Assembly (NCBI RefSeq): GCF_022539505.1
Contig: NC_061510.1
Location: 400,192,249 to 400,256,248 of the forward strand
Direction of reading: 5' to 3'
Length of the DNA: 64,000 nt
DNA from: Lolium rigidum
Lineage: Eukaryota > Streptophyta > Magnoliopsida > Poales > Poaceae
A model generated the notes under the pieces. It worked only from the letters and a program-made list of their open reading frames with translations. It was not told where the DNA came from and did not search any database. Each line of letters starts with the position of its first letter. Position 1 is the stretch's first letter. This document shows positions 2,918 through 55,002 of the stretch, in pieces. A program made the position numbers and the translations under genes.

Positions 2918-2985
2918 TCGAGTGTCCGTGGCACTCGGCAAAGTCCGGAAAACACTCGGCATTCACTTTGCCGAGTGTGGCATCT
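2918..2985. repeat. CACTA-like subterminal repeat fragment
   Basis: Three copies of a 12-base word occur within 70 bp: CACTCGGCAAAG, ACACTCGGCATT and, inverted, CTTTGCCGAGTGT. Arrays of TTTGCCGAGTG in both orientations are typical of subterminal regions of some grass CACTA elements. Neither end nor transposase is present, so this is at most a remnant. Confidence 0.4.
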
Positions 2986-3346
2986 CGGAACATGACCAAC
3001 CTAAGGCTGGTGCCAACGCGGGCGGTAGCAGGGGCGGTAGCGCCAGCGTCGGGGCGAGAGGGAGGCGAGAGAGGGGCGAGACCAGATGGCGGGGCGGTGG
3101 CGCGGGCGCCCGGCGGTAGCGCCCGCTATCGCCCGGCTGCCGCCCGCGCTGGGGGCGATAGCGGGGCGAGAGGGAGGCGGCAGCGTTGGCACGTCGGGGC
3201 GAGAGGCGGGGCGAGAGGGAGGCGGTAACGGCTAGCTGAGGTGGCGCGATCTGATTCGTCCACCTCAGCTAGCCGTTGGGGTAGCCGTTGTCGGCTCAAA
3301 AAATTCGAAAAAATGCCAAAAACCCCAAAATTTCATCCCCACCCCC

Positions 3347-5884: not shown

Positions 5885-6525
5885 TACGGTTGATATAAAT
5901 ACTAGAACTTTGCCACAAGTATTGCTCCAAGACCCAGGGTCTACACTACCTTGTGGCGTAAGATTAATGACGGAGAGTAATCAGCCTTTTGTTCTCGTCC
6001 TCACTCTGAATCGTCTTCGGTGGGACAAGTTCAGTCCCCTCAAGGAGACCCATTACACGAGCACCGCGGATAGTGGGCAACACCTGAGGAAGTTTTCCCT
6101 GGTCAGCTTTGTTGCAGTCGGTGCACCAATGGTGGCCGCTGCGGACAAAGTCAAAGAAGACGCATCAGTTCCTAGTTCCTGCCGCGGCAGAGAAAGGACA
6201 CGAAGTCCTTTCATGGTTCCTATCGTGGCAGAGAAAAGCCGCTAAGTCCTGTCGTGATAGAAAAAGAGCTACGGCGATGAGGGTTCTTACGATTGAAGGC
6301 GGACGGATCTTGGGGAACCGAGGAGATTGGATCGAGGCTTGACTTGCGTGATCGTTGATGGAAGAAAACCGAGGCCGAGAAAAGGTTCTCGGCGTCGAGG
6401 CGGAGCAGATCCTGGTTCTTGAGCCGTGGACACGACGAAGTCCTTGCGACGGGAGGAGTTGAACACACGGCTAGCGGTAGCTAGACGGGAAGAGCCTCAT
6501 CTGATATGGTGAACTTAAGACCTCT
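5885..6525. other. Probable retrotransposon-derived DNA of unclear family
   Basis: The 6150-6280 stretch carries a repeated phrase (GAGAAAGGACACGAAGTCCT and a variant about 50 bp later). The right part, ending in AAGACCTCTTGGCT, resembles the internal end of the TRIM copy to its right. No protein domain was found. Confidence 0.35.
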
Positions 6526-6833
6526 TGGCTCTGATACCAACAATATATGATTAATGCACTAGCCAAATTTTTCAAAAGACCGATCTGATGGAATGAGGCT
6601 AGGCACTATATTTATATTCAACACTCTCCTCATGTCTAGGTTATTTAGGCCTTAGCGTGGATTCGGTGCACTATTTTAGTCCTTAGCGTGACCCACAAAA
6701 TCCTTTTTCGCTTTTTAATATGCGCGAGTAGGGTCTTCAACTTGTGACCTCTTGGCTTTGATACTAAATAGCATGCGCTAATCGGTTTAACTAAAAGACC
6801 GATCTGATGGAGGAGGGTTAATTATATTCACCA
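6526..6833 (-). mobile_element. TRIM/SMART-like small LTR retrotransposon, partly tandem
   Basis: Read on the minus strand the order is LTR (6833-6767), primer-binding site (6766-6753, a variant of TGGTATCAGAGCC, complementary to initiator Met tRNA), a short non-coding interior, a GAGGAGAG purine tract (about 6631-6624) and a second LTR (6623-6540). A further primer-site match, TGGTATCAGAGCCA, lies just beyond, at 6539-6526, as if a second unit shared the LTR. The LTRs are about 70-85 bp and share CAAAAGACCGATCTGATGGA. No coding capacity: a terminal-repeat element in miniature. The same LTR family is found inside the NLR gene at 53386-53470. Confidence 0.65.
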
Positions 6834-9150
6834 ATCCCTTTACTGCCGTTAAACATGACCACTCCGGCAATGTCTCTACTCCTTCGTCTTCGATGTCAGT
6901 CACCGGTGAGTCCACCGTCTTTGCGAGGTTGACACCTGCCTAATACAAAACCTTCCGAGTTACTGTACTGCACTAGCAACAAAAAAGCAGCCAACATTAC
7001 GGACCACATTTATAGGCTGATGCGCAAGCGCAACAGTACCGATCTGCTTAATCGCGTACGGTTTGTTAGTGAATCTAGCCCATACTGTACATGTCTTCCA
7101 CCATGAGCGACTGAACAGTATGCTAATTAGCAGCAGTGGCGTAACAGAGCAGAGCAGCACATGCTGATGACTGCATTATGAGCTGATCAACAGATAGTAA
7201 GCTCTTGGCTCCCCTTTAATGGCGTCCACCCTCCCACCCGTCCATCCGGCCAGGCTTAATTGGCTCCGACGACGACGTTCCAGGGAGGCGTGCGTGCGTG
7301 AAACTCGTGACGCATGTGTACATTTTAGCTATTACCGGCAGCCTTTTCCGTGGATTTAATTCGATCTCAACTTGCACGAGATCTTCTAGTTTGTTGCTTT
7401 GACAATGATGATCCAACAAGAACCTAACCTAGCTAGCCAGTACTGTATATAGCCTTTTGACCTAGCTAGCAGGCATAGATACCATAGGAATTTGGTTTGG
7501 GAGCCGGACGAAAAAGATCGCCCGCTCGTTAATTTTAGAGTGTGAATGTCTTCTTAAACCCTTTCCCGATTTCTCCCTCTTGATCGTCCCTCACTTTAAC
7601 TGACCCTTTCTAACTCAACCACTCGCATGTTGTCACATGTTGTCAGTTGTTTTTGTTGGCCCTGTCATTTCATCATTTTTTTAAAACTATGTCGCCCTGT
7701 CTTGATTTGCCCCCATCAAATGAGGTGGGAAACCAACAGGCGACGACCATAGGGGCGGGGGTCATCGTAGCTACGTGCCATGCCACTTGTCATCGATCTC
7801 TCTCTAACTTCCTTCTCCACGTCCTTCTTGGCATGTGGTTGTTCGCTCCATTAAGGTCCAGGAGTGAACAACCCCGCATTAGATTTGAAATTTTAAATAG
7901 CCGGCTATATCCTTTAGAGAGCCTTGTGGTTACAACTAAGGCATTCATATGATATACCGAGAATAGCCGCTAATAGCTCTGCTAAGTCAATCTAGCCCCT
8001 TTACTCTCAAAAGGTAAATTTAGCCCCTTTAGCCGCTAAACTTCCCGCTCAGCCAACCCAAAAAATTTGGACCAAAAATTTTCTACCAGCCCAATTTCGC
8101 AACCAAAATCGATTCCTCTTCTAACTCTACCAATAATCCCCACTTTTCCCTACTCTCCCCCAAAAAAGGACGGGAGAGGCGACCATCGCAGCGGCGTGCG
8201 CACTCCCACTCTCGGCGGCCCTTGCTGCGCGATGGAGCTCAAGCTCCTCGAAGATTGCTAAAGTTGAACGTGGGTGTGCTCATCCTCAACGAATATATGC
8301 TGCCGAAATTTTGAAATTTTTTATCTAGGAAAATCGCCTTATGGACTTAGATGCACTGTAGTATGGCTATAGCCTTTTATAGCCGATAGAATCGCCGCGG
8401 CTAAATGCAATAGTCCGCTACTTTGAACTTTGATTCTTTTCTTCATTTGGGGCCGATGCATCTAGCTAAACCTCTAATGCGTGACAGACAACAAAATCCA
8501 GCCAGCTACTTAGCTAGCTGTATGTAGCAATGAGCAATGATCGACGTTGAAGGCCAGTTGGGCTGGACACGTACATCATGGGGTGCGGTCTTGTTACATT
8601 TTTAAAAAAGAGAGGAGCTACCGGTTGTTGCAGCATGCATGCATGCATATGCAGGTGGTCACCGTACAACACACTATTGTCCTACATTTCAGGAGCTTTA
8701 TGAAAATCATTATTGATTCAATTCAACATTGGTTTTTGAACGACATTAGTTCATCAATCAACATATATGTGTGCATATGGAGTCAATTAGGTCCTCTCGA
8801 GCTAGACCCAGCAACAGTCGACGCATGTTACCCCTAGGTAGCTCGAGCTAGAGACGTCCCGGAGACCTCAACCTCCTCGACCTCGATGAGTATATCATTC
8901 CGTCGAGAAATAACATGATGGATCGCGAGCTGGACTGAGAAAATAATGCCGCAACGGCACTGAAAGCGAGCGAGAAAAGTTAACGCGCGCCATGAATAAT
9001 GAGCTAGCATGGCTGAGCTTAGCTATGTCTAGCTGTCGGAGTGACCCGCGCACCACGTTTGCTCGCGGTGCTGATCGATGATCGATCGCTTGTGGCTGGG
9101 AGGGAGCCGACGTCGTCGGCGACCGATCGGGATCAAGCGCGTGCGTGCAG
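6834..9150. other. Intergenic DNA with scattered repeats
   Basis: No convincing gene. Around 7885-8430 the words AGCCGGCTAT, AGCCGCTAA and CCGCGGCTAA recur in both orientations, suggesting a decayed MITE whose ends I cannot fix. A GCATGCATGCATGCAT palindrome sits near 8635. Short ORFs elsewhere lack domains. Confidence 0.35.
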
Positions 9151-51461: not shown

Positions 51462-54400
51462 ATGGATCTGGCAACAGGCGCAATGGGTTCCCTGCTCCCC
51501 AAGTTAATCGAGCTTCTGAACGAGAAGTACAAGCTGCAGAAGGGCATCAAGAAAGATGTCAAGTTGCTGGAGAGAGAGCTGAGGAGCATGCACGCTGCCC
51601 TCAGCAAGGTGTCGGACGTGCCGCGGGACCAGCTTGATGAGCTGGTAAAGATCTGGGCTGACAACGTTAGGGATTTGTCCTACGATATGGAGGATGTCGT
51701 TGACAGATTCCTAGTGCATGTCAAAGGTTTTGAGTCTGCTGCCAACTCGCAAAAGCTCAAACAGCTCATGAAGCAGATGGGAGACTTGCTCACCAAGGGC
51801 AAAACTCGAGATCGGATAGCCGGTGAGATCAAAGACATCAAGGTTCGAGTCAAGGAGGTGGCTGACCGGCGTGACAGGTATAGAGTTGACAGTGTTGTTG
51901 CTAATTCAGCAGCCACAACTGCCATTGACCCTCGCTTGTTAGCTCTCTACAAAGAAAATCAAGAGATTGTTGGTACCGCAGAGGCAATGGATGAGCTAAT
52001 CAAGAGGCTCGCTGATGAAGATATTGTGTCCAAACCCCAGCTAAAGATTCTATCCATTTTCGGATTTGGGGGATTAGGCAAGACGACCCTTGCGAAAGAA
52101 GTGTATGACAGGCTTCAAGCACAATATGCTTGCAAAGCATTTGTTGTGGTGGGCCGTAATCCCAACCCAAAGAAAGTTTTCAAGGATATTCTCCTTGAAC
52201 TCGACAAGCAAAGGTACATGGATTTCAATCTAGCCATGTTGGATGAAAGGCAGCTCATCAATGAACTTAGAGAACAACTCATGAACAAGAGGTATCCACC
52301 CACCCTAGTATACTTCAGTTCGTATTTTTATCTACTCGGCACGTATCTCAATAACATTGATGGTAATTATAGTATTCTCATAAATATATGCATAAATCTA
52401 TTTATATATCAACACTGTATTTGATCACTTGAGTGATGCATCTAAGAGGCATAAAAATTGAATCTAAGTAAGTAATGAGTGGCTTATTTTGCTTCAAATG
52501 TCCTTAATTATGTTTGGGATTAACTCAATGTCGTGTGGGATTTTATTGGGTACCCTAGGGATATTCTTATGATTTTTAGAAGACAAAAAAGCAAATTGTG
52601 CCTTTTTCTTGGATATATCTCTACTGTTTCCTCACGTTCATTCAATGATTATTTGGGTTACGTTAGAGATCTGGGTAACTAATGAAAAAATGTAATGCAT
52701 GTCCTTCTCTAGCAGCTTTAGTTTACTTCAACTTACATCGTGGTGATGTACACTGAATAATGACATGTTTAGATTCCTCACCGGTCGAGGTGATTTGTCG
52801 CGTTTGTTGTTTTTCTGTAGATAATCAACTGGTTTACTAATTCATGGCTGTGGTGCTGTAATGCGGATAGGTACTTCATCGTTATTGACGATGTATGGGA
52901 TACCAAAACATGGGGAATAATCAGATGTGCATTTATGGATAAAGATTTTGGAAGTAGAATAATCACAACTACTCGAATTTTTGAAGTCGCCAGAAAGGCT
53001 GGTGATGTTTACAGGATAAAACCACTTTCTCCCAAGGAGTCTAAAGAATTATTCTATACAAGATTATCTAGTGATAAAAGGAAATGCCATTACGAACAAC
53101 AAGCTGAGCTATCTGAGAAAATTTTATGTAAATGTGGTGGTGTACCGTTAGCTATCATTACCATAGCTAGTTTGTTGGCCAGTAAACCAAGGAATGGTTG
53201 GTCTAAGGTGTACAGCTCTATTGGTTTTGGTTCAGGACAAAATGAAGATGTCAAGAACATGAGAAAGATACTGTTATATGGCTATTATGATATGCCTTCT
53301 TATCTAAGAACTTGCTTATTGCATCTAAGTATATACCCAGAGGATCAGCGGATATACAGAGTAGAATTGATATGGAAGTGGGTAGTGTTAAGCTTCATGC
53401 ACTAGCCACTTGAACCAAAAGTCCGAACTGATGGAAAGGGCTAGGCAATCCACATATACATTTCACAACAGGTAGCAAAAGGATTTGTACACGAGGAACC
53501 TGACATGACACTATTTGAGGTTGGAGAGAAATACTTCAACGAGCTTATTAACAGAAGTATGATCCGTCCATTTCAAGAAGTACACCATGGTGACGTCATT
53601 GGTTGCTATGTCCATGACATGGTACTTGATATGATATGTTCCTTGTCAAAAGAAGAAAATTTTGTTACCATATTAGGTAGTGATGAGCAATGCATGTCCT
53701 TGCAAGGCAATGTTCGTAGGTTAGCAATCCAAAACGGAATCATAGATAAACAGGGCCCTTTGGCTAACACAGGCACTCGACAACTGAGATCATTTAATGC
53801 CACTGGATGCTGCATCGATATGATGCCTTCACTTACAAAATTTGAAGTTCTGCGTGTCCTAGATTTTCAAGGATGCAATAATGTACATTCTTATAATCTG
53901 AAGCATCTTGGGAAGTTACTTCAGTTGAGGTATCTTGGAGTACGGTGCACTGCTATATCTGAACTACCGGAAGAAATTGGAGATTTGAAGTTTCTGCAGA
54001 CACTGGACATAAGGCAAACTGCAGTAGAAGAGCTGCCGCGGGGCATTGGTCGACTGAGGCAGCTCAAGCGCATCAGTATGGAGCATGGTTGTGTAAGAGT
54101 GCCGGAATGGATGGGAAACCTGGCATCCCTGGAAGACCTATCTGTGGACAATGTCAGCGAATCCCCAAACTTTGTGAAGGAACTGAGCAAGCTGACAGAG
54201 CTAAGGAGGCTCAATATTTATATTGGGGAGTTGGGTGTGGAGGGCTGGAAGTGCAAAGCTTTGGCGGAATCACTAGAAAAGCTGCAGAAAATCCAAGTTC
54301 TGGGTATTTGGTCGACCAAGGAGGCCAACTTGGAGACCCATGTGCCCTCTGGACAACTCCGTGAACTGTTCCTAGCCACTGTATCCTCCAGGCTGCCGAT

Positions 54401-55002
54401 GTGGATCAATTCATCGCTTCTTCCAAACCTCACCTATGTATGGGTGAGTCTGAAGGATGTGAAGGAACAAGATATTGAGGTTCTTGGGAGGTTCCCGGAG
54501 CTTCTCACTATGCAGCTGATTATCAGAATTTCTGCTGGCGGTGGCTCTGATCCTCCATGCGAATGCAGTGGAGGGTTATTCCCCAAGTTGAAACACTATG
54601 CCACGCCAGCACCGCTGCTGGCTCTCAAGGGAGCTATGCCGAGCATTGAATCCATCAGATTCCAAGTCCATGTGCGGTCTTTGAAGGATTCCAAATTCGA
54701 CTTTGATTTCAGTAGCTTAATGAACCTCCCTTTGCTGGAGAAAGCAGAAGTTAATATCATCTGCACGGGCGCCCACGCACATGAGGTGGAGGAGGCAGAG
54801 GCAGCTTTGACGCATGCAGTCCAAGTCCATCCCAACTATCCATTCCTTTCTCTCACAAGATATGGTATACATACCTCTCCACCCTGCTCTTCATCACATT
54901 CATATTTTTTTCGGGCTAGCTATAGCTAGTGTAGTCTTGAGATCCCTCTACCTAATCCATATAGTATATCCTTATTTTCTTACTTTTGCAGGCGAGACAT
55001 AG
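51462..55002 (+). CDS. CC-NBS-LRR immune receptor (NLR), four exons
   Basis: Exons are 51462-52291, 52871-53381, 53472-54864 and 54992-55002, giving about 914 residues. An N-terminal coiled coil has the MEDVVD motif near residue 76. NB-ARC follows: P-loop GFGGLGKTT near 201, kinase-2 YFIVIDDVW near 280, RNBS-B GSRIITTTR, CGGVPLA near 364, RNBS-D YLRTCLLHLSIYPED, and VHD in place of MHD near 494. The C-terminal half is LRR (LRYLGVRCTAISELPEEIGD and further repeats). Such proteins sense pathogen effectors in the cytoplasm and trigger cell death. Intron 2 (53382-53471, 90 nt) is a transposon insertion; if it is not removed the frame stops at a TAG within it. Intron 3 is inferred from TATG|GTATAC and TTTTGCAG|GCGAG; without it the protein would end about 18 residues later, at 54929. 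No integrated HMA or other decoy domain is seen. Confidence 0.9.
53386..53470 (-). mobile_element. Solo LTR of a TRIM/SMART-like element forming an intron of the NLR
   Basis: 85 bp from TGTTAAGCTTCATGC to CACAACA, flanked by a perfect five-base duplication GGTAG (53381-53385 and 53471-53475). It shares ATGCACTAGCCA, a CAAAAG.CCGA.CTGATGGAA core and GGCTAGGCA with the LTRs at 6540-6623 and 6767-6833; the orientation call follows those. The likely intron is 53382-53471: GT comes from the left duplication copy, CAG from the LTR's last bases plus the first base of the right copy. Confidence 0.85.

Follow-up and report, generated by a model that had tools for sequence, protein, structure and literature searches.

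Can the remnant of a retrotransposon that lands in coding sequence be removed from the RNA as an intron, with the target-site duplication helping to supply the splice sites? The question is raised by a 64,000-bp stretch of the Lolium rigidum genome (hereafter the window; C3:400192249-400256248 in a search of the species' own 2.44-Gb assembly), where a SMART solo LTR is inserted in the coding sequence of a CC-NB-LRR immune-receptor gene. A first-pass annotation had claimed that the LTR made its own intron. In that claim, the insertion, the supply of GT and AG, and the restoration of the frame all stand; the use of these sites by the spliceosome is a prediction from the sequence.

The insertion and its host gene

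51462..52291, plus strand: coding exon 1 of the CC-NB-LRR gene, with Rx_N and the first part of NB-ARC
52292..52870, plus strand: intron 1, 579 bp, at a position conserved in relatives, whose unspliced open reading frames (ORFs) enter the exon at the acceptor
52871..53381, plus strand: coding exon 2, kinase-2 to RNBS-D, last residues LIWKW
53381..53385: left target-site duplication GGTAG, supplying the candidate 5' splice site G/GTAG
53382..53471, plus strand: predicted new phase-0 intron, 90 bp (4 bp of duplication, the LTR, and 1 bp of duplication)
53386..53470, minus strand: solo LTR, 85 bp, SMART/FRetro129 family, antisense to the gene
53428..53432, plus strand: branch-point-like CTGAT, its A 40 nt before the acceptor
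53471..53475: right target-site duplication GGTAG, whose first G completes the candidate acceptor (AACA plus G)
53472..54864, plus strand: coding exon 3, winged helix and LRR
54992..55002, plus strand: probable last coding exon, ending RYGET and stop, as judged from GT-AG signals and frame

The encoded receptor has Rx_N, NB-ARC, WH_DRP, and LRR_14 domains, and its closest solved structures are Sr35 and MLA13. The insert is placed after residue 447. Its location, first given as the RNBS-D/ARC2 region, can be refined to a point just past RNBS-D and within the winged-helix domain, which is of ARC2 type (Pfam WH_DRP, residues 431-502). The boundaries of the LTR at 53386 and 53470 are exact, and the same 85 bp with the same TGTT...AACA ends recur elsewhere in the genome. 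The GGTAG copies on the two flanks are identical; the left one offers a GT at 53382 and the right one completes an AG at 53470-53471. Excising 53382-53471 joins LIWKW to VAKGFVHEEP and restores WKWVAKGF with no base lost, just as the first-pass annotation had it. The predicted product would then have 914 residues, the frame being otherwise open over 914 codons. With the 90 bp kept, the frame soon runs into a stop, as had also been noted: a TAG at 53403 ends a product of 454 residues. The stretch at 53281-53303, upstream of the insertion, encodes GYYDMPSY and is presumably the counterpart of the miR9863 target region of barley Mla; it would remain in unspliced RNA.

Identity of the element

The insertion had been described as a TRIM-size solo LTR. 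The solo LTR holds, and the description can be sharpened to a known family, SMART (FRetro129), in antisense orientation to the gene. SMART has an 85-bp LTR with 5'TGT...ACA3' ends, a 5-bp target duplication, and a published size of 292 bp (Gao et al. 2012, PMC3281118). It is known from grasses alone, commonly lies within introns and in or close to genes, and its solo LTRs measure 79-87 bp in O. brachyantha (PMC3281118). The insertion has the 85-bp LTR, ends of the TGT...ACA type (TGTT...AACA), and the 5-bp duplication GGTAG.

Further evidence comes from the alignment of published SMART sRNAs (40 distinct sequences; 41 table rows, one repeat) with the 85 bp and with controls. The element's summed score was 345, compared with a maximum of 301 in 300 shuffles. 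When 640 85-mers of the window were scored in the same way, the top one (324) overlapped the element and the next best reached 307. The sRNA matches are ordered along the reverse strand of the LTR, which is why the LTR is read as antisense to the gene. This likeness, measured on published sRNAs, allows the element to be identified as a SMART solo LTR. Moreover, ATCAG, the reverse of CTGAT, occurs in both rice and maize SMART sRNAs (PMC3281118), so the branch-point-like CTGAT is a feature of the family.

Complete SMARTs are present in the same genome. One lies ~74 kb downstream of the gene (L029, positions 2940-3268; 329 bp). Its LTRs are 83 and 82 bp long with 90.7% identity to the gene's LTR over 75 bp, and it carries a PBS (TGGTATCAGAGCC), a purine tract, and an internal stretch resembling published SMART sRNAs. 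Three further elements with PBS and purine tract are 348 bp (L069), 381 bp (L064), and 390 bp (L070) long. All four lengths, measured between the outer LTR ends, exceed the published 292 bp, and none of the four elements is long enough to encode a retrotransposon protein set. The outer flanks form a perfect 5-bp repeat in L070 (GGTTA), agree at 4 of 5 positions in L029 and L069, and form no repeat in L064. The L029 flanks (CAAGT/CACGT) suggest a duplication with one mismatch. In L069 and L070 the right-hand flank begins with GGT, and by the same rule these elements would make introns in coding sequence; a search of their flanks for open frames did not place them evidently in any.

A genome search with a 95-bp query, the LTR with GGTAG at both ends, listed 41 matches, one being the window itself and one partial. 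Among these best matches there are 39 other places with the LTR, 32 of them identical over 85/85 bases and 7 with one base different; the query favours high identity and G-starting flanks, and no rate is derived from these counts. Many of the copies have a reversed PBS or a reversed purine tract at their side, and therefore belong to longer elements. The gene's LTR has neither beside it, which marks it as a solo LTR. Another lone LTR (L037) lies between perfect 5-bp duplications of GACAA. Within the window, two diverged SMART-like LTRs stand on the minus strand at 6526-6845, adjoined by PBS-like stretches (the reverse of GGCTCTGATACCA and a variant), possibly as a tandem element. Their matches to the insertion amount to 62/80 (6539-6623) and 54/77 (6767-6845) ungapped columns, and in 6480-6900 three of the nine published SMART sRNAs tried exceed their 100 shuffles. 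The pair was considered for dating the insertion and rejected as too diverged. Rfam returned no match at the site up to E = 1 and none above the gathering scores in the window.

Could the 90 bp be an ordinary old intron that merely resembles an LTR with duplications? This was our first suspicion, because GT...CAG ends mimic those of an LTR, and such ends, a length of 90 bp, and a G+C content of 43% are what one might expect of a plant intron. However, the same 85 bp stand elsewhere in the genome beside a PBS or a purine tract, and the state of the site in relatives refutes this reading, as described below.

The site before the insertion

A protein search of the genome for the receptor gene gave 90 matches. 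One of them is a copy at C3:400663818-400665255, ~420 kb from the window gene, with a protein 95-96% identical. Its DNA (L081; C3:400662900-400667100, reverse strand) is 98.2% identical in an alignment of 3,657 bases. The sequence at the site is GAAGTG-GGTAG-CAGAAGG: there is one GGTAG, no element, and exactly 90 bp fewer. The copy is itself broken, having lost 10 bp at window 52256 and 2 bp at window 53356, and carries a TAG at codon 276. Homology between the two regions spans ~12.7 kb, with flanking pieces at ~44.6-45.1, 48.1-48.5, and 56.8-57.3 kb of the window 92-96% identical to the copy region; a fourth outer piece, expected near 60 kb, has its sole match elsewhere at 78%. Either the region was duplicated segmentally, or a second haplotype was placed at another point of the assembly; in both cases the copy shows the state before the insertion.

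The site is likewise empty in 6/6 relatives of the same genome that were read at the DNA level (L075-L080). Judged by match ranges, every row of the 90-match table spans the site except the two of the window and the exon-2 piece of the copy. Relatives from other sources were informative where an ORF lay on unspliced DNA, recognised by intron-1 residues preceding exon 2 or, under a stricter rule, by residues unlike exon 1 before R277. In the first 120 listed proteins, 70 start at the exon 2 start and 39 of these cross the site ungapped; under the stricter rule 57 qualify and 31 cross, the rest not reaching or covering the site. A second set consisted of 55 of 56 metagenome-type proteins from 103 new ones, P0310 being left out as it starts past the site. 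Here 43 begin at the exon 2 start and 43/43 cross, as do 35/35 under the stricter rule, with a query that spanned both sides of the site and so favours crossing ORFs. The strict crossers of both sets number 66, of which 65 are distinct around the site. Because these unspliced ORFs enter at the intron 1 acceptor and run across the site, intron 1 is old and the second position is normally uninterrupted. In other words, the 98% identical copy, the six relatives of the same genome, and the 66 unspliced ORFs leave the reading as an old intron next to no probability. An intron at the same place in relatives is what the first-pass annotation had itself named as refuting its claim; the site is empty in all of these.

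Seven of the 120 listed proteins stop at residues 444-447. Four (P0160, P0164, P0166, P0179) end at the site, where a contig end and a gene-model end look alike, and three (P0169, P0174, P0178) have short unrelated tails from two or three residues before it. None of the seven shows LIWKW followed by an unrelated V-starting tail, as expected of a donor at the window's position. Two JGI ORFs come close to the window gene: P0121 (95% identical) starts at the first ATG of unspliced exon 2, crosses the site, and is frameshifted ~55 residues past it, and P0310 (96% identical) starts ~116 residues past it. Viral contigs searched for plant DNA held no relative by protein; an 18-base pattern gave four matches there (L001-L004), which were not used. 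The parts of PMC5882135, PMC8184838, and PMC4263374 drawn on here state no comparable intron position.

Age and constraint

The empty copy confirms that the insertion into coding sequence is recent. The window gene and the copy differ at 17/866 noncoding positions (intron 1 9/578, 5' flank 3/161, intron 3 5/127) and by 21 synonymous changes on 606 sites. With a rate of 1.3e-8 per site per year, as meant in PMC3281118 (the minus sign is missing in print), a divergence of 2% would place their split about 0.75 My ago. That the insertion is younger than this split is certain from the comparison of the two sequences, and the identity of its LTR with 32 other places agrees with recent activity.

Has selection kept the window gene intact since then? 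The two genes differ in the residue encoded at 22 codons, one of them a stop. Assigned to lineages with ten relatives, few of which cover each codon closely, these changes divide into 10 for the window lineage, 8 (one a stop) for the broken copy, and 4 ambiguous ones; the window copy thus gives no indication of being the more constrained of the two. A pN/pS of 0.31 between the two genes indicates past constraint but does not extend to the period since the insertion, which is so recent that an intact frame proves little about function. These results bear on a plain alternative, namely that the LTR is hardly or not spliced and the gene is a null allele, giving at most the 454-residue CC-NB fragment, which has not decayed for lack of time. 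The recent date with an LTR identical at 85/85 positions to 32 others, a sister copy already broken by its 10-bp and 2-bp deletions, and a window lineage with as many residue changes as that broken copy all speak for it. So does the protein search: no L. rigidum protein of this gene is among the 120 listed relatives, which are cluster representatives and include another L. rigidum protein (P0069). Against it stands the intact remainder of the gene.

Splice signals

The splice signals speak on both sides. GT-AG pairs were examined with donors from 53322 to 53439 and acceptors up to 53531. Eighteen pairs keep the frame open, and 53382/53471 alone restores the exact protein. Its donor, TGG/GTAGTG, is weak, which adds to the case for a disrupted gene: it agrees with the consensus at 4/9 positions, and 86/192 GTs in the gene score higher. 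The gene's other two inferred donors reach only 5/9. By U1 duplex energy (-7.6, register not restricted) the same donor ranks 5/192. The acceptor is not the first AG after CTGAT: two others (53437, 53443) come before it.

An outcome this clean is expected of few insertions. Among 2,729 possible 5-bp targets in the coding sequence, 41 (1.5%) start with GGT and would allow equally scarless removal. A frame-restoring GT-AG pair with no residue change is therefore not what a merely disruptive insertion would usually produce. All considered, we regard an unspliced null allele as a serious possibility, if one short of even chances.

One substitution lies close to the acceptor. At 53478-53480 the empty copy reads GGTAGCAGAAGG and the window reads GGTAGCAAAAGG; codon 450, GAA in the copy, is AAA in the window, which changes E450 to K in the conserved VAEGF motif. 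Among 265 motif-matching proteins of the 343 collected, 259 have E at this residue, 3 have K, and 3 have D. The G-to-A change abolishes a CAG that ends seven bases past the acceptor and is kept in the empty copy; this CAG could compete with the predicted acceptor. As one of 22 residue-changing codons, E450K may be a coincidence.

Splicing might also use other sites, such as a donor at 53361 or 53385 or another acceptor, so that the winged helix would be slightly lengthened or shortened. The 17 further pairs that keep the frame open would allow this. However, they would alter the conserved motif, and none was found better supported, the strengths not being compared pair by pair. We consider this outcome very unlikely.

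How, then, would the 90-nt intron have arisen? A full SMART would have landed first, antisense in the coding sequence and after the split from the 98% identical copy, duplicating GGTAG. Recombination between its LTRs would then have removed the rest and left the 85-bp solo LTR. The left duplication would serve as donor (G/GTAG), the LTR end with the first base of the right duplication as acceptor (AACAG/GTAG), and CTGAT within the LTR as branch point. At least some transcripts would then be shortened by exactly 90 nt and encode the receptor in its full length of 914 residues; unspliced RNA would give the 454-residue CC-NB product or be degraded. We lean slightly towards this account, in which the solo LTR is spliced from at least part of the RNA, and the locus is best described as a candidate for a transposon-born intron gain with predicted splicing. 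The further suggestion of the first-pass annotation, that the insertion acts as a dosage switch, is unsupported, as is any regulatory role.

Implications and comparison with known systems

If an intron was born here, its base rule (a TG...CA element at a GGT target) makes the same event searchable in every grass genome. A bolder reading, which we think rather improbable, is that SMART LTRs are portable, scarless introns of grasses, any antisense insertion at a 5-bp target starting with GGT yielding a frame-neutral GT-AG intron. It follows from the TGTT start, the AACA end, and the family-shared ATCAG, which in antisense puts CTGAT ~40 nt before the end. If it were true, the intron would be the element plus 5 bp, ~330-390 bp long at first and shortened to 90 bp once the LTRs had recombined. 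Some of the SMARTs annotated as lying in introns would have made those introns, and immune-receptor families would be the setting that tolerates such events.

The SMART family is known, and so are transposon insertions that are spliced as introns. Giroux in 1994 reportedly described a de novo intron derived from maize Ds, an exonic transposon spliced from RNA, and retrotransposon 412 in Drosophila vermilion is likewise said to be spliced out. Both resemble what is proposed here, with other elements in other hosts. An exonic copia LTR element, ONSEN, was seen spliced out in Arabidopsis transcripts (PMC12112155). As here, an LTR element in an exon is removed as an intron, which in our case is predicted. 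However, the ONSEN insertions were full-length and freshly induced, and the transcript was observed, whereas the present case is an 85-bp solo LTR in a natural genome, read from its sequence alone.

Introners offer another comparison. Some bring one splice site with them and rely on the target duplication for the second (PMC9860276), and this loan from the duplication is also what is proposed here. Introners exist as many intron copies, and most families bear signs of DNA transposition; the survey, in the parts drawn on here, reports none in land plants (PMC9860276). In L. rigidum, near-identical LTR copies exist, but the candidate intron is known at one gene.

The closest comparison is with SMART itself. 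Published SMARTs lie in introns, UTRs, and three exon fragments, with 11 genes of altered structure (PMC3281118). The present element is like them in LTR size, ends, 5-bp duplication, occurrence of solo LTRs, and sRNA matches. The parts of that paper drawn on here describe no solo LTR that forms a whole intron, whereas the candidate at this locus is one, and the literature searched, which was covered in part, did not mention a SMART solo LTR that serves as an intron. As far as that literature shows, what is new is that a naturally inserted SMART solo LTR is a candidate for an entire intron and that its empty counterpart survives as well; the element, both duplications, and the pre-insertion copy all persist in one genome.
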